The notes under the pieces were generated by a model that was not told the origin of the DNA, searched no databases, and was given only the letters and a program-made list of their open reading frames with translations. This document shows positions 5,482 to 35,685 of a stretch of DNA of 47,221 nt, piece by piece (position 1 is the stretch's first letter; the number at the start of each line of letters is the position of its first letter). Position numbers and translations under genes: made by a program. This stretch comes from Fibrobacterota bacterium (GTDB lineage: Bacteria > Fibrobacterota > Fibrobacteria > UBA11236), in NCBI GenBank assembly GCA_028287505.1, contig JAQBPN010000049.1, positions 1-47,221 on the forward strand. The letters run 5' to 3'.

Positions 5482-6306
5482 ATGTTCGGCGATTGGGTGA
5501 AACTCGCGCGGCTTGCAAATGCCGTTACTGCGGGAATGGGCGTTTGGCTGGGCCATGCCTGCCTTCCCGGCCCCCTGGCCTGGAAGGCCGCCGTCCTTGG
5601 GTCGGCCGCCATGGCCGTTCTGGCCGCAGCCGGCAATATGCAAAACGATGTGCTGGATTTACAGGCCGATCGCATCAACCGCCCAGATCGTCCCCTGCCT
5701 TCCGGCCGCGTGGCGCCCGGCCCCGTGCTTTCCGCCTCCATCGCCCTGTATCTCCTGGCCGTCCTGCTTGGGTTCGCCTTGGGGGGATCTGAGGGTTTTT
5801 TGACCTTGGCCATGGGGCTGCTCTTGTGGCTATACAATCTCAAGCTCAAGGCCATGCCCTTATGGGGTAACCTGGCGGTGGCGGCCCTGTGCGCGCTCGC
5901 CATCTACCTGCCGGAACTCGGCCGCTTTCCCGATTTCACGGCCATTCCGGTGCTTTTCGCGTTCCTGACCACGCTGGCCCGGGAAGTGGCCAAGGATGCC
6001 GAGGACGTGGCCGGGGACATGGCCATCGGCTACAACACCCTGCCCATCCGTTTCGGCCCGGACGCCGCCAAGGGCGTTACGGCCGCGGCCTGCATCCTGG
6101 TGGTCCTGATGCTGCCCGTCCCTTGGCTGCACCTGCGCTACCATGCGGGATACGCCGTTCTCGCGGCTTTGGGTCCGTTGCCCTTGTTGGCCACCATCCT
6201 GGCGGCCCTGAGGCATTCCGTAACGGACTGGAGAGCGGTGCAACGCCGGATGAAGTGGATTATGCTGACGGGGATGGCGGCGATTCTGGCCGGGGTGCTG
6301 GGATGA
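5482..6306 (+). CDS. UbiA-family prenyltransferase, digeranylgeranylglyceryl-phosphate-synthase-like
   Basis: Integral membrane prenyltransferase, about 274 aa from ATG 5482 (an in-frame GTG at 5449 would add 11 residues; neither start has a clear Shine-Dalgarno). The first prenyl-diphosphate Asp motif is the textbook NDVLDLQADRINRPDRPLPSG. The second is KDAEDVAGDMAIGYNTLPI, the pattern of geranylgeranylglycerol-phosphate geranylgeranyltransferases and not UbiA, MenA or chlorophyll synthase. Eight or nine hydrophobic helices are recognisable. The family transfers a second isoprenoid chain to a glyceryl ether in archaeal lipid synthesis, and homologues have been reported in FCB bacteria. Substrate here is inferred; no GGGP synthase is seen in this window. 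It ends 54 bp before heptamer element A. Confidence 0.85.
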   Translation: MFGDWVKLARLANAVTAGMGVWLGHACLPGPLAWKAAVLGSAAMAVLAAAGNMQNDVLDLQADRINRPDRPLPSGRVAPGPVLSASIALYLLAVLLGFALGGSEGFLTLAMGLLLWLYNLKLKAMPLWGNLAVAALCALAIYLPELGRFPDFTAIPVLFAFLTTLAREVAKDAEDVAGDMAIGYNTLPIRFGPDAAKGVTAAACILVVLMLPVPWLHLRYHAGYAVLAALGPLPLLATILAALRHSVTDWRAVQRRMKWIMLTGMAAILAGVLG

Positions 6307-6360
6307 AGAGGCGGATCGGGAATGCAAGTGGATTTTGAAACCGAGGCCCTCGGGGATGCG

Positions 6361-6490
6361 TTTCGTCGGGCGACGGGCGTCGGGCGTCGGGCGCAAAACC
6401 GGGAGAATGCGAGGGCATTCTCTTCCTCGGTTTATGCGCTCGCGTAAGTGCGGAAAAAGTTTTACGCCCGACGCCCGACGCCCGACGAAA
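6361..6490. repeat. Heptamer inverted-repeat element A
   Basis: The left arm (6361-6398) reads TTTC, then GTCGGGC, GACGGGC, GTCGGGC, GTCGGGC and G, then CAAAA. The right arm (6460-6490) is its reverse complement: TTTTAC, three GCCCGAC units and GAAA. Between them lie an inner AAACCG...CGGTTT stem and a nested GAGAATGC (6403-6410) / GCATTCTC (6415-6422) hairpin. The element lies between two convergent genes: 54 bp after the UbiA stop and 56 bp from the PorV-like stop. It shares the tail TGCGGAAAAAG plus TTTACGCCCG with element D. Confidence 0.85.
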
Positions 6491-6546
6491 CGCTATTCAG
6501 GAGTAAATTCGCCCCCGAAACACAGCCCTCCATCAGCACGTCCTCC

Positions 6547-7479
6547 TCAGTACCGGATGTCCAGCGACCAATAGTGCGCCGGGCTCAGCGTCTCATGGCT
6601 CTGGTACGCGTATTGGAATTGAAACATGGACCAGCGTAATCCCAGCCCGGCGGCCAGGCCAGGCTCCTGCTCTCCGAACGGGAAGCCCGCGCGGGCGAAG
6701 AGGACTTTCTTCCAGGCCAGCTCCAGCCCCGCCGGCCAGACCATCTGCTCGTCATTGCGCGTGCGCGCGTCCACCTCCGCGGCCGCCTCGAAGTTCGCGC
6801 CCAGGGAATGGGAATAGGCGAGTCCGGCCTGCAGCGCAGTGGGAGGGAAGGGATCCCGGTTGTTCGCGTCCTTGGCCTTGGAGTCCCAGAAATCCGCGTT
6901 CACGGCGCTGGCGCCGGCCACCAAGCCGGGCAGGATGATGTAACGGGCTCCCGCGCTGATCATGCCCGATGAATAGTTCGCGTTGGCGATGCTGTTTCCG
7001 GCATAGCCGAGGGTGGCGCCCCAGTAGAGGTTATGTAACACGCCGGCTACCCCGGCCTGGGCCTTGAGCGTGTGGGCCCCGTATTTGGAAGTCGTCTTGT
7101 CCTGCTCGCTGAATCCGGGCAGATCGTCGAAACCCAGGTAACGCGCGTTCAGGAGAATACGATAGCCCCCGGAAGGGATGGACCAGGTGATGTGGCTGCT
7201 GTTGGCCTGGAACTCCGCGAAGGGATATCCCTTGCCCACGATGAGGGCGCCGGATGAATCCGCCGCGGATGACGCGGGATTGAGATCGATTTCCCCGGCG
7301 CCGTCCGCCAGGGCCACGCCGGATCCGCCCAGGCCGACGATGCGCGGGGACAGGGGGAGCTTCAGGAATTTGAAGCTGGCTTCCCCGAACTCCTTGTCGA
7401 ATTCCAGGGCATGGGAGGAAACGCATGCGGCCAGAAGCAGAAAGAAGGGCCAGGCCTTGGCCGGAGTACGCGCATCCAT
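6547..7479 (-). CDS. PorV/PorQ-like (UPF0164) outer-membrane beta-barrel protein
   Basis: 310 aa with an N-terminal signal peptide (hydrophobic PFFLLLAACVSSHA, cleavage after about residue 24). The mature N-terminus has the hallmark of the PorV/UPF0164 family: ASFKFLKLPLSPRIVGLGGSGVALADG followed by the NPAS motif, as in barrels that start with a small lid and a 14-stranded barrel. Alternating hydrophobic strands fill the rest, and the last residue pattern (SLDIRY) ends in an aromatic as outer-membrane proteins do. PorV proteins shuttle type IX secretion substrates, but the family also has unrelated members. It follows a second PorV-like gene by 25 bp and is probably the last gene of that operon. 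Confidence 0.8.
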   Translation of the reverse strand: MDARTPAKAWPFFLLLAACVSSHALEFDKEFGEASFKFLKLPLSPRIVGLGGSGVALADGAGEIDLNPASSAADSSGALIVGKGYPFAEFQANSSHITWSIPSGGYRILLNARYLGFDDLPGFSEQDKTTSKYGAHTLKAQAGVAGVLHNLYWGATLGYAGNSIANANYSSGMISAGARYIILPGLVAGASAVNADFWDSKAKDANNRDPFPPTALQAGLAYSHSLGANFEAAAEVDARTRNDEQMVWPAGLELAWKKVLFARAGFPFGEQEPGLAAGLGLRWSMFQFQYAYQSHETLSPAHYWSLDIRY

Positions 7480-7504
7480 AGGGGGATAAACTAAAAAGAT
7501 TCGT

Positions 7505-8536
7505 TCAAAGGGTGAACCGGAAGCCCACGGCGAAGGGATTGATGGTCAACAGCCCCCGTTCGGCCACAATCGCGTAGTCGAAGAGGAGTTTGTGGGCGCC
7601 CCAAGGGAGGCTATAGCCCAGTCCGGCGCTGATGTTCCCCTGGTCCACGCCGGCCCGCACGTTCATCTGGTCGTTCAGGTGCCAATCCGCTCCCAAGCGG
7701 ACTGCCTGGGCATGGAAATTGGCGTCCGTGACGAACAAATCCCTTTTCAACTGGTAGTCGATGCCCTCCGCGGACAGATCGAAGGTCTTGTTCCAGGCCT
7801 TCACGGTGTAGAAGACCGCCGCCACCAGGGTCTTGGGCATGAAGTCCGAGGCGGTGCGCTCGAACCCTTGCGCGTCCTCGCTGGAGAGGGTGGTCTGATC
7901 GAAATCCGCGGAAAGATCCTTGTTGATGCCCAGATTGCGGACCACGACGCCGGTCTTCAGCGAATTGCTCCAGCGCTTGTACCAACCCAGGTTGAAGACC
8001 CCGATCACGTTGACGTTGCCGGTGCCGCCCCCCAGATCCAGATTGTACGAGTACCATTGCACGGCCGCGCCGAAGCTATTGCTGCGGGAGATCTTGACGC
8101 CCATGCCCAGATAGCTGCCGATGGCCTGGGGTTGCGCCGTGCCCAGGGATTTCTCATCGGCGTCATAAGCGGGCACGTTGAAATCGCCCCGGTTGAGGAT
8201 GCCGACGCCCAGCCCCATGTTCGCAGCCACGCGGCCCTGGACTCCGGCAAACCCGCCGTTGCGGGACAGGGTGCGGATATCGGCGCCCACGCCCACCGTG
8301 ACTTGGCGGTTGAAAGGCAGGATGGCGGGATTCCAGAAGGCCGCCGGCATGGCTTCCTCGGACGCCGTGCCGGTATTGCCCATCCCCAGTTCGCGGATGC
8401 CCCCGCCCATGCGATCGAGCCAGCCCTCATGGCCGCCCAGAACCTCCGGAGCGGTGCCGGCGGCATGCGCGGCCGCGATCCCGCCGCAGAGCAATCCGCC
8501 CAACGCCAGGCCACGTATCGATGGCAAGCGGCGCAT
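7505..8536 (-). CDS. Second PorV/UPF0164-like outer-membrane barrel protein
   Basis: 343 aa from ATG 8536, which overlaps the preceding TGA by one base (TGATG); a GTG at 8539 is an alternative. A signal peptide covers about the first 25 residues (LALGGLLCGGIAAAHA). Then comes the family pattern IRELGMGNTGTASEEAMPAAFWNPA, equivalent to the GxGgagtA...NPA motif. Beta-strand alternation continues to a terminal GFRFTL, with Phe two residues before the end. It is distinct in sequence from the neighbouring barrel, so the pair are paralogues rather than a recent duplication. Tight coupling to the FlgD-tailed secreted protein upstream suggests a secretion or surface-display module. Confidence 0.8.
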   Translation of the reverse strand: MRRLPSIRGLALGGLLCGGIAAAHAAGTAPEVLGGHEGWLDRMGGGIRELGMGNTGTASEEAMPAAFWNPAILPFNRQVTVGVGADIRTLSRNGGFAGVQGRVAANMGLGVGILNRGDFNVPAYDADEKSLGTAQPQAIGSYLGMGVKISRSNSFGAAVQWYSYNLDLGGGTGNVNVIGVFNLGWYKRWSNSLKTGVVVRNLGINKDLSADFDQTTLSSEDAQGFERTASDFMPKTLVAAVFYTVKAWNKTFDLSAEGIDYQLKRDLFVTDANFHAQAVRLGADWHLNDQMNVRAGVDQGNISAGLGYSLPWGAHKLLFDYAIVAERGLLTINPFAVGFRFTL

Positions 8537-10128
8537 CACAGGCCCCGCCCGTGCACGGCGATGGCTTTGCCCCAGCCCTTTTCGCCCTGATCGGATTCGA
8601 CCAGGATATAGTAGGTGCCGATGGAAACGTGGCGGCCGCCGGAATCCTTGCCGTCCCAGCGATCCTCCCCGGGATTTTCACTGCGGCCGCCGCCGCCGTT
8701 CCGCTTGGCGCTCTTCACGATGGTGGCCACTTTTTCCATCGCGTAATTGTAAACCGTGATGGTGACGCGGCCGTTTTTCTTGAGGCGATAGCCCAGGTTG
8801 ACGTATTCGGGGCTGCCGTCGCGGGCGGTTCCCGAGAACAAGGTGGGAAAAGTGATGACTTCCTGGAGGCCGCCTTTAAGGCCCTTCAGGCTGTTGACAT
8901 CGGTCCAAAGCCCGGTATTCGATCCGCCGGTCTTGCGCAGCAGAATGCCCCTGGAGGTGGTGCCTGCGGCCAATGCCGTTTGCCCGCCCTGCTTCGCCAC
9001 CGCAAGGGTGGTGAGCCGTCCCTGGCCCTGCTGGATGGGAAGCCCGTCCGCCGCGTCGAAGATGACGTCGGAGAAATTCCCCGCGCCCGAATTGGCGAGG
9101 ATGGTGTCTTTCCGGAAAAGCACCAGGCCCGGATTGTTATCGAGATTGAAGTTCACGAAGGAGGTATCGCCTACGTTCACCGCTTCCGGAGCGGGATTGA
9201 ACCCGGTCAGGGAATCCGGCGCGCTGGCCACGCCCGCGATGCGGGGCGGCTTGTGGAAGGTGGCGCCATGATCGCCGCTGAAGAAATATTCCGATCCGGA
9301 AAAGACCCATAGGATGTTGCGCGCCGCGTCCACGTGGATGCTCTCGATGCGGATGGGACTGGAAGGCTTGATTGCGGGCAGGGAAACCTTGGGAAAGGAA
9401 TTTCCGGAGAGCAGCCCCCGGCGCAGGCCCGTATGGGTGCCGATCAGGAGCCAAACGCTGTCCGCGGAGGAGTCCACGGCCAGGACCGAAACGGAGTCCG
9501 GAGAACCGATCTTCTCGGCGACGGCGGTCAAGGCCGAGACCGGGCACTTGTTCTTGTTGTTCACGGCGCAGCGGATGGCGGCCACGCCGGTGTCCTCCCC
9601 GTCGGGCAAGGCCCGGAAAATCAAGGAGTCTCCGGCCACGGCGCCCTCGCCTTCCGCCTTGGCTCCGGTGACGGCGATGCCGGCGGTCCCGGCCCCCACG
9701 ATGAGCGTATCATGCCAAAGGGCGATGGCGGAGAGCTCGACGCCGACGGTCACCCCCGTGTTTCCCGCGGAGCGGAAGAATGCGACCGTGTCCGTTTTCG
9801 TTTTGCCGGCGCGATCCAGGGAGGCCAATCCCCCCACCGTCACCGTGTCCGCCTGGGGGTAGTTGAAGAAGACCAGCGCGGTGGAAGTCCGTCCCAGGCC
9901 GCCGCGGATGCCAGCCTTGAAGGGCGCGGAACCGTTGCGGATATCCAGGACCGCCGGGAAGGGATCGATGCGGCTGAACTGGAGCCCGTCCGCGGAAAAG
10001 GCCCAGAATCCGGCGTCGTCCGCGATGATGCGGGAAATGGTCTTGGAAACCAGCGGATCGCTCTGGCCCAGGGCCAGACCCGCCGCCAGGCCGATGGCGA
10101 AGGCCGCGCGGCGGATCAAGGAGTGCAT
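8536..10128 (-). CDS. Secreted protein with C-terminal FlgD-like Ig domain
   Basis: 530 aa from ATG 10128 (an in-frame TTG at 10140 is an alternative). It has a signal peptide (IRRAAFAIGLAAGLALG). The body is a low-helix, repeat-poor region rich in beta-type sequence, resembling a propeller-like sensor fold (phrases such as GLQFSRIDPF, GLRRGLLSGN, YFFSGDHGATFHKP recall sortilin/BNR blades). The last 90 residues form a FlgD Ig-like domain: NLGYRLKKNGRVTITVYNYAMEKV, then the W-D-G-K-D motif, then GTYYILVES. Such tails are common on proteins exported by FCB bacteria and can act as secretion or anchoring modules. The exact ligand is unknown. Confidence 0.75.
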   Translation of the reverse strand: MHSLIRRAAFAIGLAAGLALGQSDPLVSKTISRIIADDAGFWAFSADGLQFSRIDPFPAVLDIRNGSAPFKAGIRGGLGRTSTALVFFNYPQADTVTVGGLASLDRAGKTKTDTVAFFRSAGNTGVTVGVELSAIALWHDTLIVGAGTAGIAVTGAKAEGEGAVAGDSLIFRALPDGEDTGVAAIRCAVNNKNKCPVSALTAVAEKIGSPDSVSVLAVDSSADSVWLLIGTHTGLRRGLLSGNSFPKVSLPAIKPSSPIRIESIHVDAARNILWVFSGSEYFFSGDHGATFHKPPRIAGVASAPDSLTGFNPAPEAVNVGDTSFVNFNLDNNPGLVLFRKDTILANSGAGNFSDVIFDAADGLPIQQGQGRLTTLAVAKQGGQTALAAGTTSRGILLRKTGGSNTGLWTDVNSLKGLKGGLQEVITFPTLFSGTARDGSPEYVNLGYRLKKNGRVTITVYNYAMEKVATIVKSAKRNGGGGRSENPGEDRWDGKDSGGRHVSIGTYYILVESDQGEKGWGKAIAVHGRGL

Positions 10129-12612: not shown

Positions 12613-12636
12613 AGACCCCTTTGCGCCTGATTGAGA

Positions 12637-12823
12637 TTTCGTCGGGCGTCGGGCGTCGGGCGTCGGGCGTAAAAGCCGAAGACCAACACCTGGTCTTGAA
12701 CGACATCTCGGCTTTTTCGCCCTCCTGCAACTTCCAGAATTTTTTGATCCACGGCAGTTCCAACCTTTCCCAACCCGACTCCCCCTTCTCTTCGCGCCCG
12801 ACGCCCGACGCCCGACGCCCGAC
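12637..12823. repeat. Heptamer inverted-repeat element B
   Basis: This is the most regular copy. The left arm 12637-12674 is TTTC, four exact GTCGGGC units (12641-12668) and GTAAAA. The right arm 12796-12823 is four exact GCCCGAC units. Just inside the left arm AAAAGCCGA pairs with TCGGCTTTT (ending near 12716), with an inner AAGACCA/TGGTCTT hairpin, which is terminator-like on both strands. The element starts 24 bp after the HEAT gene stop. Beyond the right arm is a CGGGAT-GCG-ATCCCG palindrome (12823-12837). The left arm has four GGG tracts spaced by four bases, a G-quadruplex pattern. Confidence 0.9.
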
Positions 12824-12898
12824 GGGATGCGATCCCGAGGGCTGCGGCGTCTCAATCCACGCTCTTTCCCGATCCACCTCTTCCTCCCGGAAGCCCAC

Positions 12899-32595: not shown

Positions 32596-32764
32596 TTTCG
32601 TCGGGCGACCCGGCACGAAACGTGCCTGGGCGTCGGGCGTTAAGAAAAAACCCGAAGAACTCCCGAGTTGTCTTGGTTTTTTCTTTACGCCCGACGCCAA
32701 GGCGCCAAACCGATGTCTCTCAAGGGTTAAACTCTGACGCGCCGGTCGCCCGACGCCCGACGAA
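32596..32764. repeat. Heptamer inverted-repeat element C with inserted hairpin
   Basis: The left outer arm TTTCGTCGGGCGAC (32596-32609) is interrupted by a GGCACG-AAA-CGTGCC hairpin (32612-32626), then GGCGTCGGGCGT (32629-32640). AAGAAAAAACC (32642-32652) pairs exactly with GGTTTTTTCTT (32675-32685). Outside it, ACGCCCGACGCC (32687-32698) pairs with the left heptamer arm, so 32629-32698 folds as one stem of 24 nt per arm with a single mismatch. A spacer follows, then the right outer arm GTCGCCCGACGCCCGACGAA (32745-32764). It lies between the convergent FHA and ispF genes and ends 12 bp from the ispF stop. Confidence 0.85.
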
Positions 32765-32776
32765 CGAATCGAGACA

Positions 32777-33265
32777 TCAAGGTGTATTCAACATCGCCGA
32801 GGCGCACGCGAACGCCTGGATCCCCAATCCCTTTCCGAAATCCGTGAGCCCCTCCCCGGAGGTGGCCGTGATGCCGACATCCTCGGTCCCCAGTCCGGTC
32901 AGTTCCGCCACGCGGGCGGTCATGGCCGCCAGCAGCGGCAGGATCTTGGGGCGGAGACACTCCAGGGTTACGGAAACATGGGTGAGACGGTAGCCGGCCG
33001 CATCCAGGTCTTCCAGGGCCTTTTGCAGATAGGCGGAGCTATCGGTGATCCCGGCCTTGCACATGCCGTCGGCCACCGGGCCCAGGATGGGTTTGCCGGT
33101 GATGCCGGAAACCGCATTGGTGACGGCGTGCAGCACCACGTCCGAATCGCTGTTGCCCTCCAGGGCGTATGCTTCCCGCAAGGTCACCCCGCCCAGCACC
33201 AGGGCCTTCCCCGCGGCGGGTTCCTGGATACGATGGCTGTCCTGTCCGATTCCGACTTTGAACAT
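32777..33265 (-). CDS. ispF: 2-C-methyl-D-erythritol 2,4-cyclodiphosphate synthase
   Basis: 162 aa, the normal length. MFKVGIGQDSHRI holds the zinc-binding Asp and His. LVLGGVTLREAYALEGNSDSDVVLHAVTNA and later DLDAAGYRLTHVSVTLECLRPK match the family, and TATSGEGLTDFGKGLGI is the conserved C-terminal motif. It makes MEcPP in the MEP isoprenoid pathway. It follows ispD by 19 bp. The pathway also supplies any precursor for the UbiA enzyme of this window. Confidence 0.95.
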   Translation of the reverse strand: MFKVGIGQDSHRIQEPAAGKALVLGGVTLREAYALEGNSDSDVVLHAVTNAVSGITGKPILGPVADGMCKAGITDSSAYLQKALEDLDAAGYRLTHVSVTLECLRPKILPLLAAMTARVAELTGLGTEDVGITATSGEGLTDFGKGLGIQAFACASAMLNTP

Positions 33266-33284: not shown

Positions 33285-34001
33285 CTACGCGTCCGGGAGC
33301 GTCTCTCCCCTATCCAGCCTTCCGGCGACCCATTCCGCCCAGGCCAGATCCGCCGCTCCCGTGATCTTGCGGTTGGCGTCGCTGCCGAGCACCCAACGCA
33401 CTTCGCATCCGGCCTGTTCGGCCATCATGGCTTCGTCGGTGGGGATGTCCCCGCTCCAGGTCCGGGAATACACGGACTCCAGGACGGTGCGGGGGAATAC
33501 CTGCGGGGTCTGCACCAGAATCAACCGGCCGCGGTCCAGGGTCCGGGAGACCAGGCCGTCCGAAACCTCCTTCACCGTATCCGAAGCGGGCAGGGCCGCG
33601 ATCACGCAGGCGTCCGGGGCCACCGCCTCCAGGCAGCGGCGGATGACGGCTTCGGAAACGAAGGGGCGGGCCACGTCATGCACGAGCACGTATCGGAGTT
33701 TCGGATCCAGGACCTGGAATCCGTTGCGCACGGAAACCCAGCGCTCCGGGCCGCCCTCCACGAGTTTGACCTTGGGAAAGGCCTGCGCCAGGGCGGTAAA
33801 GGAATGCATGCGCTCCCGGGGCAGGACCAGGGCGATGGACTTGACGCAGTCCATGCGGCTGAAGGCTTCCACGGCATACGCCAGGACCGGCCTGCCGGGA
33901 AGCAATTGGAGGAACTGCTTGGGTTCCGCGCTTCCGGCGCGGAGACCCTTGCCGCCAGCGGGGAGGATGACGCCTACGGACGGCAGGGTCGTATCCGGCA
34001 T
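33285..34001 (-). CDS. ispD: 2-C-methyl-D-erythritol 4-phosphate cytidylyltransferase
   Basis: 238 aa from ATG 34001 (GGGTAA upstream; an open extension to 34043 is possible). The nucleotide-binding signature is VGVILPAGGKGLRAGSAEPKQF, followed by LLPGRPVLAYAVEAF, then VLVHDVARPFVSEAVI and PASDTVKEVSDGLV. It transfers CMP to MEP. It lies 57 bp after argG and just ahead of ispF, the classic ispDF pair. Confidence 0.94.
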   Translation of the reverse strand: MPDTTLPSVGVILPAGGKGLRAGSAEPKQFLQLLPGRPVLAYAVEAFSRMDCVKSIALVLPRERMHSFTALAQAFPKVKLVEGGPERWVSVRNGFQVLDPKLRYVLVHDVARPFVSEAVIRRCLEAVAPDACVIAALPASDTVKEVSDGLVSRTLDRGRLILVQTPQVFPRTVLESVYSRTWSGDIPTDEAMMAEQAGCEVRWVLGSDANRKITGAADLAWAEWVAGRLDRGETLPDA

Positions 34002-34058
34002 GTTACCCAAACCGCCTCCTTGCGCGCCGGCCGGAAAAGGCATCCGGCCGGACCGTTC

Positions 34059-35345: not shown

Positions 35346-35685
35346 GGACCCTTTCACCGCGGCCGGGTACGCCGGTCCGCTCGATTTGGCCCTCAAATGT
35401 AGTAATGGGAGGAAGATTACTCAGGGCAGTGGAAGAGGAACTGGACGCTGCAGAGGCTGTAGTTTGCGTTTCGTCGGGCGACGGGCGTCGGGCGTCGGGC
35501 GTAAAAACGGGATTGGGATTGGGCGGCTGGGGCAACTGGCAGGGCAGTCGCTGCCGCTTCCCAGCGGGCCCAATGGAAGCCTTTGTATGAACTACCGGTT
35601 TTTACTTTCGACGCATGGGTGCGGAAAAAGATTTACGCCCGACGCCCGACGCCGGGGCACGAAGCGTGCCCGACGAAATGTCGCC
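35346..35685. other. 340-bp intergenic region, mostly element D
   Basis: The region between the cNMP-protein gene and argG is occupied by heptamer element D (35469-35678). The remaining 123 bp up to argG hold its ribosome site and no clear further gene or hairpin; the promoter of argG, if any, would lie between element D and 35345. Confidence 0.6.
35469..35678. repeat. Heptamer inverted-repeat element D with inserted hairpin
   Basis: The left arm from 35469 is TTTC, GTCGGGC, GACGGGC, GTCGGGC, GTCGGGC, GTAAAAAC. GTAAAAAC (35501-35508) pairs with GTTTTTAC (35598-35605), the inner stem. The right arm (35632-35678) reads TTTACGCCCGACGCCCGACGCC, is interrupted by GGGCACG-AAG-CGTGCCC (35655-35671), and ends CGACGAAA. 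The tail before it, TGCGGAAAAAG, is shared with element A. It begins 8 bp from the cNMP-protein stop on the minus strand. Confidence 0.85.

Follow-up and report, generated by a model that had tools for sequence, protein, structure and literature searches.

A probable DGGGPS-type ether-lipid prenyltransferase gene in a bacterium of the class Fibrobacteria

The stretch of DNA analysed here (47,221 nucleotides, called the window below) comes from a Fibrobacterota genome of the class Fibrobacteria (6.07 Mb, 98.7% complete). Positions 5482..6306 of its forward strand hold an open reading frame with an ATG start, encoding a protein of 274 residues (P0001), or of 285 residues if an alternative GTG 33 bases upstream is used. 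From its ORF, its Pfam, NCBIfam and PDB matches, its place in a tree and an archaeal profile, it is listed as a putative UbiA prenyltransferase of the digeranylgeranylglyceryl-phosphate synthase (DGGGPS) type. The protein matches the Pfam UbiA family (PF01040) at 107 bits for a cut-off of 34, and the two Asp-rich motifs pointed out in an earlier sequence-only reading are indeed present, at residues 55-63 and 167-179, which places it in the UbiA superfamily. When the protein is aligned to the DGGGPS of Methanocaldococcus jannaschii (PDB 6m31), motif 1 (NDVLDLQAD, 5644..5670), motif 2 (YNLKLK, of the form YxxxxK, residues 118-123, 5833..5850) and motif 3 (REVAKDAEDVAGD, 5980..6018) can be located, all on the forward strand. 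N55, D59 and D63 of motif 1 correspond to N62, D66 and D70 of the archaeal enzyme, Y118 and K123 of motif 2 to Y125 and K130, and D172, D175 and D179 of motif 3 to D180, D183 and D187. All eight of the Asp, Asn, Tyr and Lys residues highlighted for the M. jannaschii enzyme, whose roles are described in the available part of a review (PMC9385802), are therefore conserved. Motif 1 is invariant in the alignments made. Motifs like these are also found in other UbiA enzymes. The pattern RE..KD within motif 3 is shared by the M. jannaschii enzyme and 95 of 101 DGGGPS-like rows (some genes having been fetched twice), and is found in none of 11 other UbiA proteins.

The gene is not a chance reading frame, since it has relatives at 56-83% identity in five genomes of the same genus and at about 29-46% elsewhere in the class, and since the gene order is kept in the relatives tested. 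An ABC-F gene lies divergent to it in all eight distinct genomes with enough flank (the flank of L022 was too short, and L019 was left out), and rsgA is kept nearby in 6/6 more distant Fibrobacterota loci. Downstream, at 6547-8539 on the minus strand, two PorV/PorQ-like proteins are encoded; they score below the model cut-off, and most of the relatives tested have them next to the gene as well. Recent transfer or contamination is thought unlikely, given the conserved order of the ABC-F, RsgA and PorV-like genes and the position of the protein inside Fibrobacterota in the tree. A dispersed intergenic element, in which 7-bp tandem units, (CGTCGGG)n, form two inverted arms ~60-150 bp apart, was also noticed. 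It occurs in the window at ~6360-6500, ~12635-12830 and ~35465-35655, with one arm near 32740, as well as in loci L034, L037, L039, L197 and L198. About nine two-armed copies were counted in the 213 kb of host genome read, and the element resembles a REP/MITE-type repeat.

The sequence-only reading had matched the protein to the GGGP geranylgeranyltransferases, and this is borne out by profiles, by the closest PDB relative and by the fold, with scores that stay under the NCBIfam equivalog cut-offs. The best NCBIfam match is PRK12884 at 179 bits, below that model's own cut-off, and three models of GGGP geranylgeranyltransferases are likewise missed (PRK12882 at 152 bits for 296, PRK12883 at 111 for 353, and PRK12872.1-1 at 85 for 278). 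These shortfalls are counted against the DGGGPS reading, and because of them the protein is filed as DGGGPS-type rather than as a proven equivalog. Models of other subfamilies score 59 bits (ChlG), 45 (BchG), 36 (UbiA-like), 27 (CyoE) and 23 (MenA), with ChlG and MenA also short of their cut-offs. The first PDB match is the M. jannaschii DGGGPS both by sequence (4e-24) and by profile (7e-46), chlorophyll synthase following by profile at 6e-15. The AlphaFold model, made from an alignment of 40 sequences, has a pLDDT of 96, and its best fold match is again 6m31 (Z 29.3, 3.7 Å over 272 residues), ahead of the UbiA proteins of Aeropyrum (Z 25.1) and Archaeoglobus (Z 21.9). With a profile built from nine archaeal DGGGPS sequences only, the window protein scores 171 bits and all 58 DGGGPS-like rows reach at least 120, the 11 other UbiA proteins staying at or below 106 (six paralogues at 56 or less, five references at 106 or less). 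Pairwise identity has no discriminating power, being 28% to the M. jannaschii DGGGPS, 29% to ChlG and 30% to Escherichia coli MenA, and this too is counted against the reading. Grouping by profile with the DGGGPS-like proteins of FCB bacteria and archaea is nevertheless supported by these sequence comparisons.

For the phylogeny, 80 of 116 relatives were kept and 54 of the 80 entered a quick tree of 78 rows, together with 11 of the 20 same-class loci besides the window, the rest being dropped as redundant or short. In this quick tree, MenA and the divergent paralogue L007 fell among bacterial rows; both were flagged as long rows, and the join of L007 to L158 carried a program warning. Removing 17 of the 78 rows gave a careful tree of 61 rows, in which there is no Cloacimonetes sequence, and chlorophyll synthase and MenA are each represented by one long-branch sequence, so that their placement is weak. 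The window protein lies inside a Fibrobacterota clade of 21 rows (support 99/98), with L086, a record titled Fibrobacteres, placed outside it. UbiA/MqnP and CyoE separate at 98/98, and the deep nodes that connect the FCB, archaeal, ChlG and MenA rows are not resolved. AU tests do not reject a single clade of all DGGGPS-like rows (p 0.334), nor a joining of the Fibrobacterota clade to ChlG (p 0.146), MenA (p 0.281) or UbiA/MqnP (p 0.066). Neither outcome that the sequence-only reading had named as a refutation came about: the genome encodes a GGGP synthase, and the protein is kept apart from UbiA/MqnP, CyoE, MenA and chlorophyll synthase by profile, and from UbiA/MqnP and CyoE in the tree. The alternative placements left unrejected by the AU tests are counted against the DGGGPS reading. 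Given these tests and the deep nodes, the subfamily assignment leans more on profiles and co-occurrence than on the tree, which by itself is not decisive.

The host genome's only GGGP synthase (GGGPS) gene, which had been suggested as something to look for, was found on contig C55 (3438-4118), where it passes three NCBIfam cut-offs (NF003198 at 277 bits for 247, TIGR01769 at 182 for 162, and TIGR01768 at 171 for 113); the DGGGPS-type gene is on another contig, C128. The GGGPS gene comes after alaS, an arrangement listed at L008:1483-3659 (minus strand). When at most 1.5 kb of flank was examined at further GGGPS loci (L040-L068 and L167-L195), a same-strand match to part of AlaS lay upstream of GGGPS at 12 of the 29 other class loci and at 8 of 22 loci from other bacterial groups, and at neither the one further Fibrobacterota locus nor any of the six archaeal loci. 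The alaS-GGGPS pair is present in some Fibrobacterota, Gemmatimonadota, Bacteroidota, Rhodothermota, Electryoneota and unclassified bacteria. A CarS-like gene, the other expected partner, did not turn up: a PF01864 search of the genome gave no match at E 0.001. Nor was a G1P dehydrogenase (G1PDH; EgsA/AraM) detected in the genome, where three weak Fe-ADH_2 matches are AroB-like or Fe-ADH proteins. The missing G1PDH and CarS are counted against the DGGGPS reading.

Isoprenoid supply is represented in the window itself by ispF (32777..33265) and ispD (33285..34043), both on the minus strand, and the earlier assignment of these two genes of the MEP pathway is upheld by scores over the cut-offs of TIGR00151 (127 bits for 116) and TIGR00453 (198 bits for 181). 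The genome encodes two prenyl-diphosphate synthases, neither of which reaches a GGPP equivalog cut-off. FPP-type synthases are marked by a Phe five positions ahead of the first DD. The clearer of the two carries it and looks to be of FPP type (NF045485, over cut-off); the second resembles medium/long-chain enzymes. With one FPP-type and one longer-chain-like enzyme, a source of GGPP is not pinpointed, which is again counted against the reading. Two proteins are over the cut-off of TIGR02032 and have, by family, a putative geranylgeranyl-reductase function. One of their genes, on contig C117 (L197:3373-4861, minus strand), directly follows a 4Fe-4S ferredoxin gene on the same strand. A ferredoxin gene also lies close to some archaeal geranylgeranyl reductase paralogues, according to the available text of PMC10821996.

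There are seven UbiA-family genes in the genome: that of the window, a UbiA/MqnP-like gene, CyoE, a DPPR synthase, an EboC/SCO3242-like gene and two that are poorly matched. These last two encode divergent proteins (L006 and L007) that fit no subfamily well. The EboC/SCO3242-like protein is encoded near an AroB-like gene (L005 and L009, contig C95, 12538-16543), a pair that we presume may be an Ebo-type cluster. Roles of the window protein in quinone, haem O or DPPR synthesis are thought unlikely, as each of them seems to be covered by a gene of its own (UbiA/MqnP-like, CyoE and DPPR synthase).

Across genomes, the DGGGPS-like and GGGPS genes go together. In the class Fibrobacteria, all 61 genomes examined for both, the window's included, have a GGGPS (PF01884) match together with a protein related to that of the window, whose best E value is 2e-11 or lower in every one of them. 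GGGPS is also found in all 29 other named genomes with DGGGPS-like genes (22 bacteria of other groups, one Fibrobacterota and six archaea), which come from 30 loci chosen among 80 named loci with such genes. Among 14 named control genomes, GGGPS passes the cut-off in five, four archaea and Bacillus subtilis, the latter being the only one of the 10 bacterial controls to do so. A broader comparison was made in Bacteroidota, to which L158 (a Saprospiraceae record) belongs, and a 90% completeness filter was requested for it. Of 118 genomes, 45 have both genes, five have only the DGGGPS-like gene, none has GGGPS only and 68 have neither (Fisher p 2e-27, the genomes being related and not independent events). 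The DGGGPS-like call there was at least 150 bits, a line set after the scores had been seen; the lowest genome counted is at 157 bits and the highest left out, with a partial gene, at 130. Three counted best matches (G199, G242 and G262) read through one stop. The GGGPS result was named for 65 of the 118 genomes, and the other 53 are among those without a match. GGGPS is thus missing in 5 of the 50 Bacteroidota with a high-scoring relative (G214, G218, G234, G266 and G288), which is counted against the DGGGPS reading and may reflect loss, incompleteness or altered function.

G1PDH follows another pattern. In a survey of 150 Fibrobacterota genomes, 109 of the window's class and 41 others, no genome of the class rises above 42 bits with the G1PDH model, some of these genomes being incomplete, whereas 18 of the 41 others score 145-279 bits, all below the model cut-off of 413. 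In the four of these 18 matches that were checked, G1PDH is the best family.

The DGGGPS reading rests on homology, motif conservation, fold, gene partners and co-occurrence, and it is likely, judging from the sequence, that the window gene encodes a bacterial DGGGPS-type enzyme (EC 2.5.1.42). The reaction in the host is inferred, as are a chain of C20, the enantiomer of the glycerol phosphate and a product that serves as a membrane lipid. The protein would be a helical membrane prenyltransferase whose two Asp-rich motifs, with Mg2+, activate a prenyl diphosphate. The prenyl-glyceryl phosphate that the C55 GGGP synthase produces would then receive the prenyl chain at its C-2 hydroxyl. No CarS was found, and the resulting diether phosphate would presumably be taken up by ordinary bacterial CDP-lipid and head-group enzymes, and the diether could be saturated by a geranylgeranyl reductase working with the neighbouring ferredoxin.

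A variant of this scheme keeps the fold and the GGGPS-dependent acceptor and changes the substrates: with a C15 or longer donor, or a G3P-based acceptor, the product would be an isoprenoid ether other than G1P archaeol. It is compatible with the DGGGPS-type reading, their probabilities overlap, and we regard it as a serious possibility, though short of probable. It would account for the undetected G1PDH and for a pair of prenyl synthases of FPP type and longer-chain-like type, and it draws on the available text of two papers, in which a Cloacimonetes GGGPS took G3P (PMC7852524) and DGGGPS takes G3P-based GGGP (PMC9385802, a review). Against it, the host GGGPS scores above the cut-off of TIGR01769, the equivalog model for GGGP synthesis (182 bits for 162), and E. 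coli lacking araM or egsA still produced G1P lipids, as cited in part of PMC7852524.

It is improbable that the window protein prenylates another acceptor (a quinone, a pigment or another small molecule), like most UbiA enzymes, its link to GGGPS being one of shared ancestry only. The AU tests leave room for a clade joined to the ChlG or MenA reference, and the five Bacteroidota lacking GGGPS fit such a role, but the relative is present in all 45 GGGPS-positive Bacteroidota and GGGPS in none of the 68 without it, the DGGGPS models beat ChlG by more than 90 bits, and other UbiA genes look to serve the quinone, haem O and DPPR functions. A degradative role in species without G1PDH is raised in the available part of one study (Coleman, 2019; PMC6431249). 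That the GGGPS/DGGGPS pair degrades archaeal lipids would suit its retention in 61/61 genomes of a class with G1PDH undetected in 109/109; it seems very unlikely, because the genome has genes for isoprenoid supply (ispD, ispF and those of two prenyl synthases) as well as for reductases and a ferredoxin, and because the Cloacimonetes pair runs forward in E. coli (PMC7852524, in the part available).

The DGGGPS-type reading can be extended to the whole class. The class Fibrobacteria, Fibrobacter included, could make saturated archaeol-type diethers as a regular component of its envelope without a known G1PDH, from G3P or from an unknown source of G1P, by a pathway passed down vertically from a time before the FCB phyla diverged; we hold this tentatively and consider it rather doubtful. 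The vertical part is suggested by the alaS-GGGPS pair across phyla and by the DGGGPS gene lying beside rsgA and ABC-F within Fibrobacterota. Fibrobacter is a genus with cultured members, and since the gene pair is in 61/61 class genomes, the question is open to testing in pure culture, beyond uncultured MAGs. Whether mixed archaeal and bacterial membranes are made by living bacteria bears on the origin of the lipid divide, and a G1PDH undetected in the class and present in its sister groups is a natural contrast for tracing the bacterial source of G1P. No archaeol lipid analysis of Fibrobacterota is among the literature matches listed, and a narrow search found no printed statement that the class as a whole lacks G1PDH or that alaS and GGGPS are paired.

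Among known systems, the M. jannaschii DGGGPS (PDB 6m31, 6m34 and 7bpu) shares with the window protein its fold, motifs 1-3 and RE..KD, but the two are only about 26-28% identical and the host is bacterial, not archaeal. In the heptaprenylglyceryl phosphate pathway of Bacillales, whose enzymes are PcrB and AraM, the first step is likewise done by a GGGPS-family enzyme. Unlike the scheme proposed here, that pathway places one C35 chain on G1P and, in the available text, adds no second isoprenoid chain (PMC9179154). Closest are the FCB bacteria, for which homologues had been mentioned in the sequence-only reading; the available part of a survey reports both genes, GGGPS and DGGGPS, for each of the 12 FCB phyla covered, and G1PDH among them only for Fibrobacteres and Cloacimonetes (Coleman, 2019; PMC6431249). 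The Fibrobacteres of that survey belong to the phylum of the window genome and have both transferases; as far as its available text goes, Chitinispirillum and Chitinivibrio hold GGGPS, DGGGPS and G1PDH, whereas G1PDH is detectable in none of the 109 genomes of the window's class. In part of another study, GGGPS and DGGGPS of Cloacimonetes make an unsaturated archaeol lipid in E. coli, and four Cloacimonetes MAGs are given as lacking CarS or G1PDH (Villanueva, 2021; PMC7852524). As described there, Candidatus Cloacimonetes resembles the window host in being an FCB bacterium with both enzymes, an MEP supply and geranylgeranyl reductases, and no CarS or G1PDH. The two genes are neighbours in Cloacimonetes, whereas in the window host they lie on separate contigs, GGGPS after alaS and DGGGPS beside ABC-F. 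The window gene is a further member of this known FCB pattern of GGGPS and DGGGPS, not new in kind. What the analysis adds is that no G1PDH could be detected in 109 genomes of the class, as against 18 genomes with matches among the 41 other Fibrobacterota, and that an alaS-GGGPS pairing is common to several phyla.
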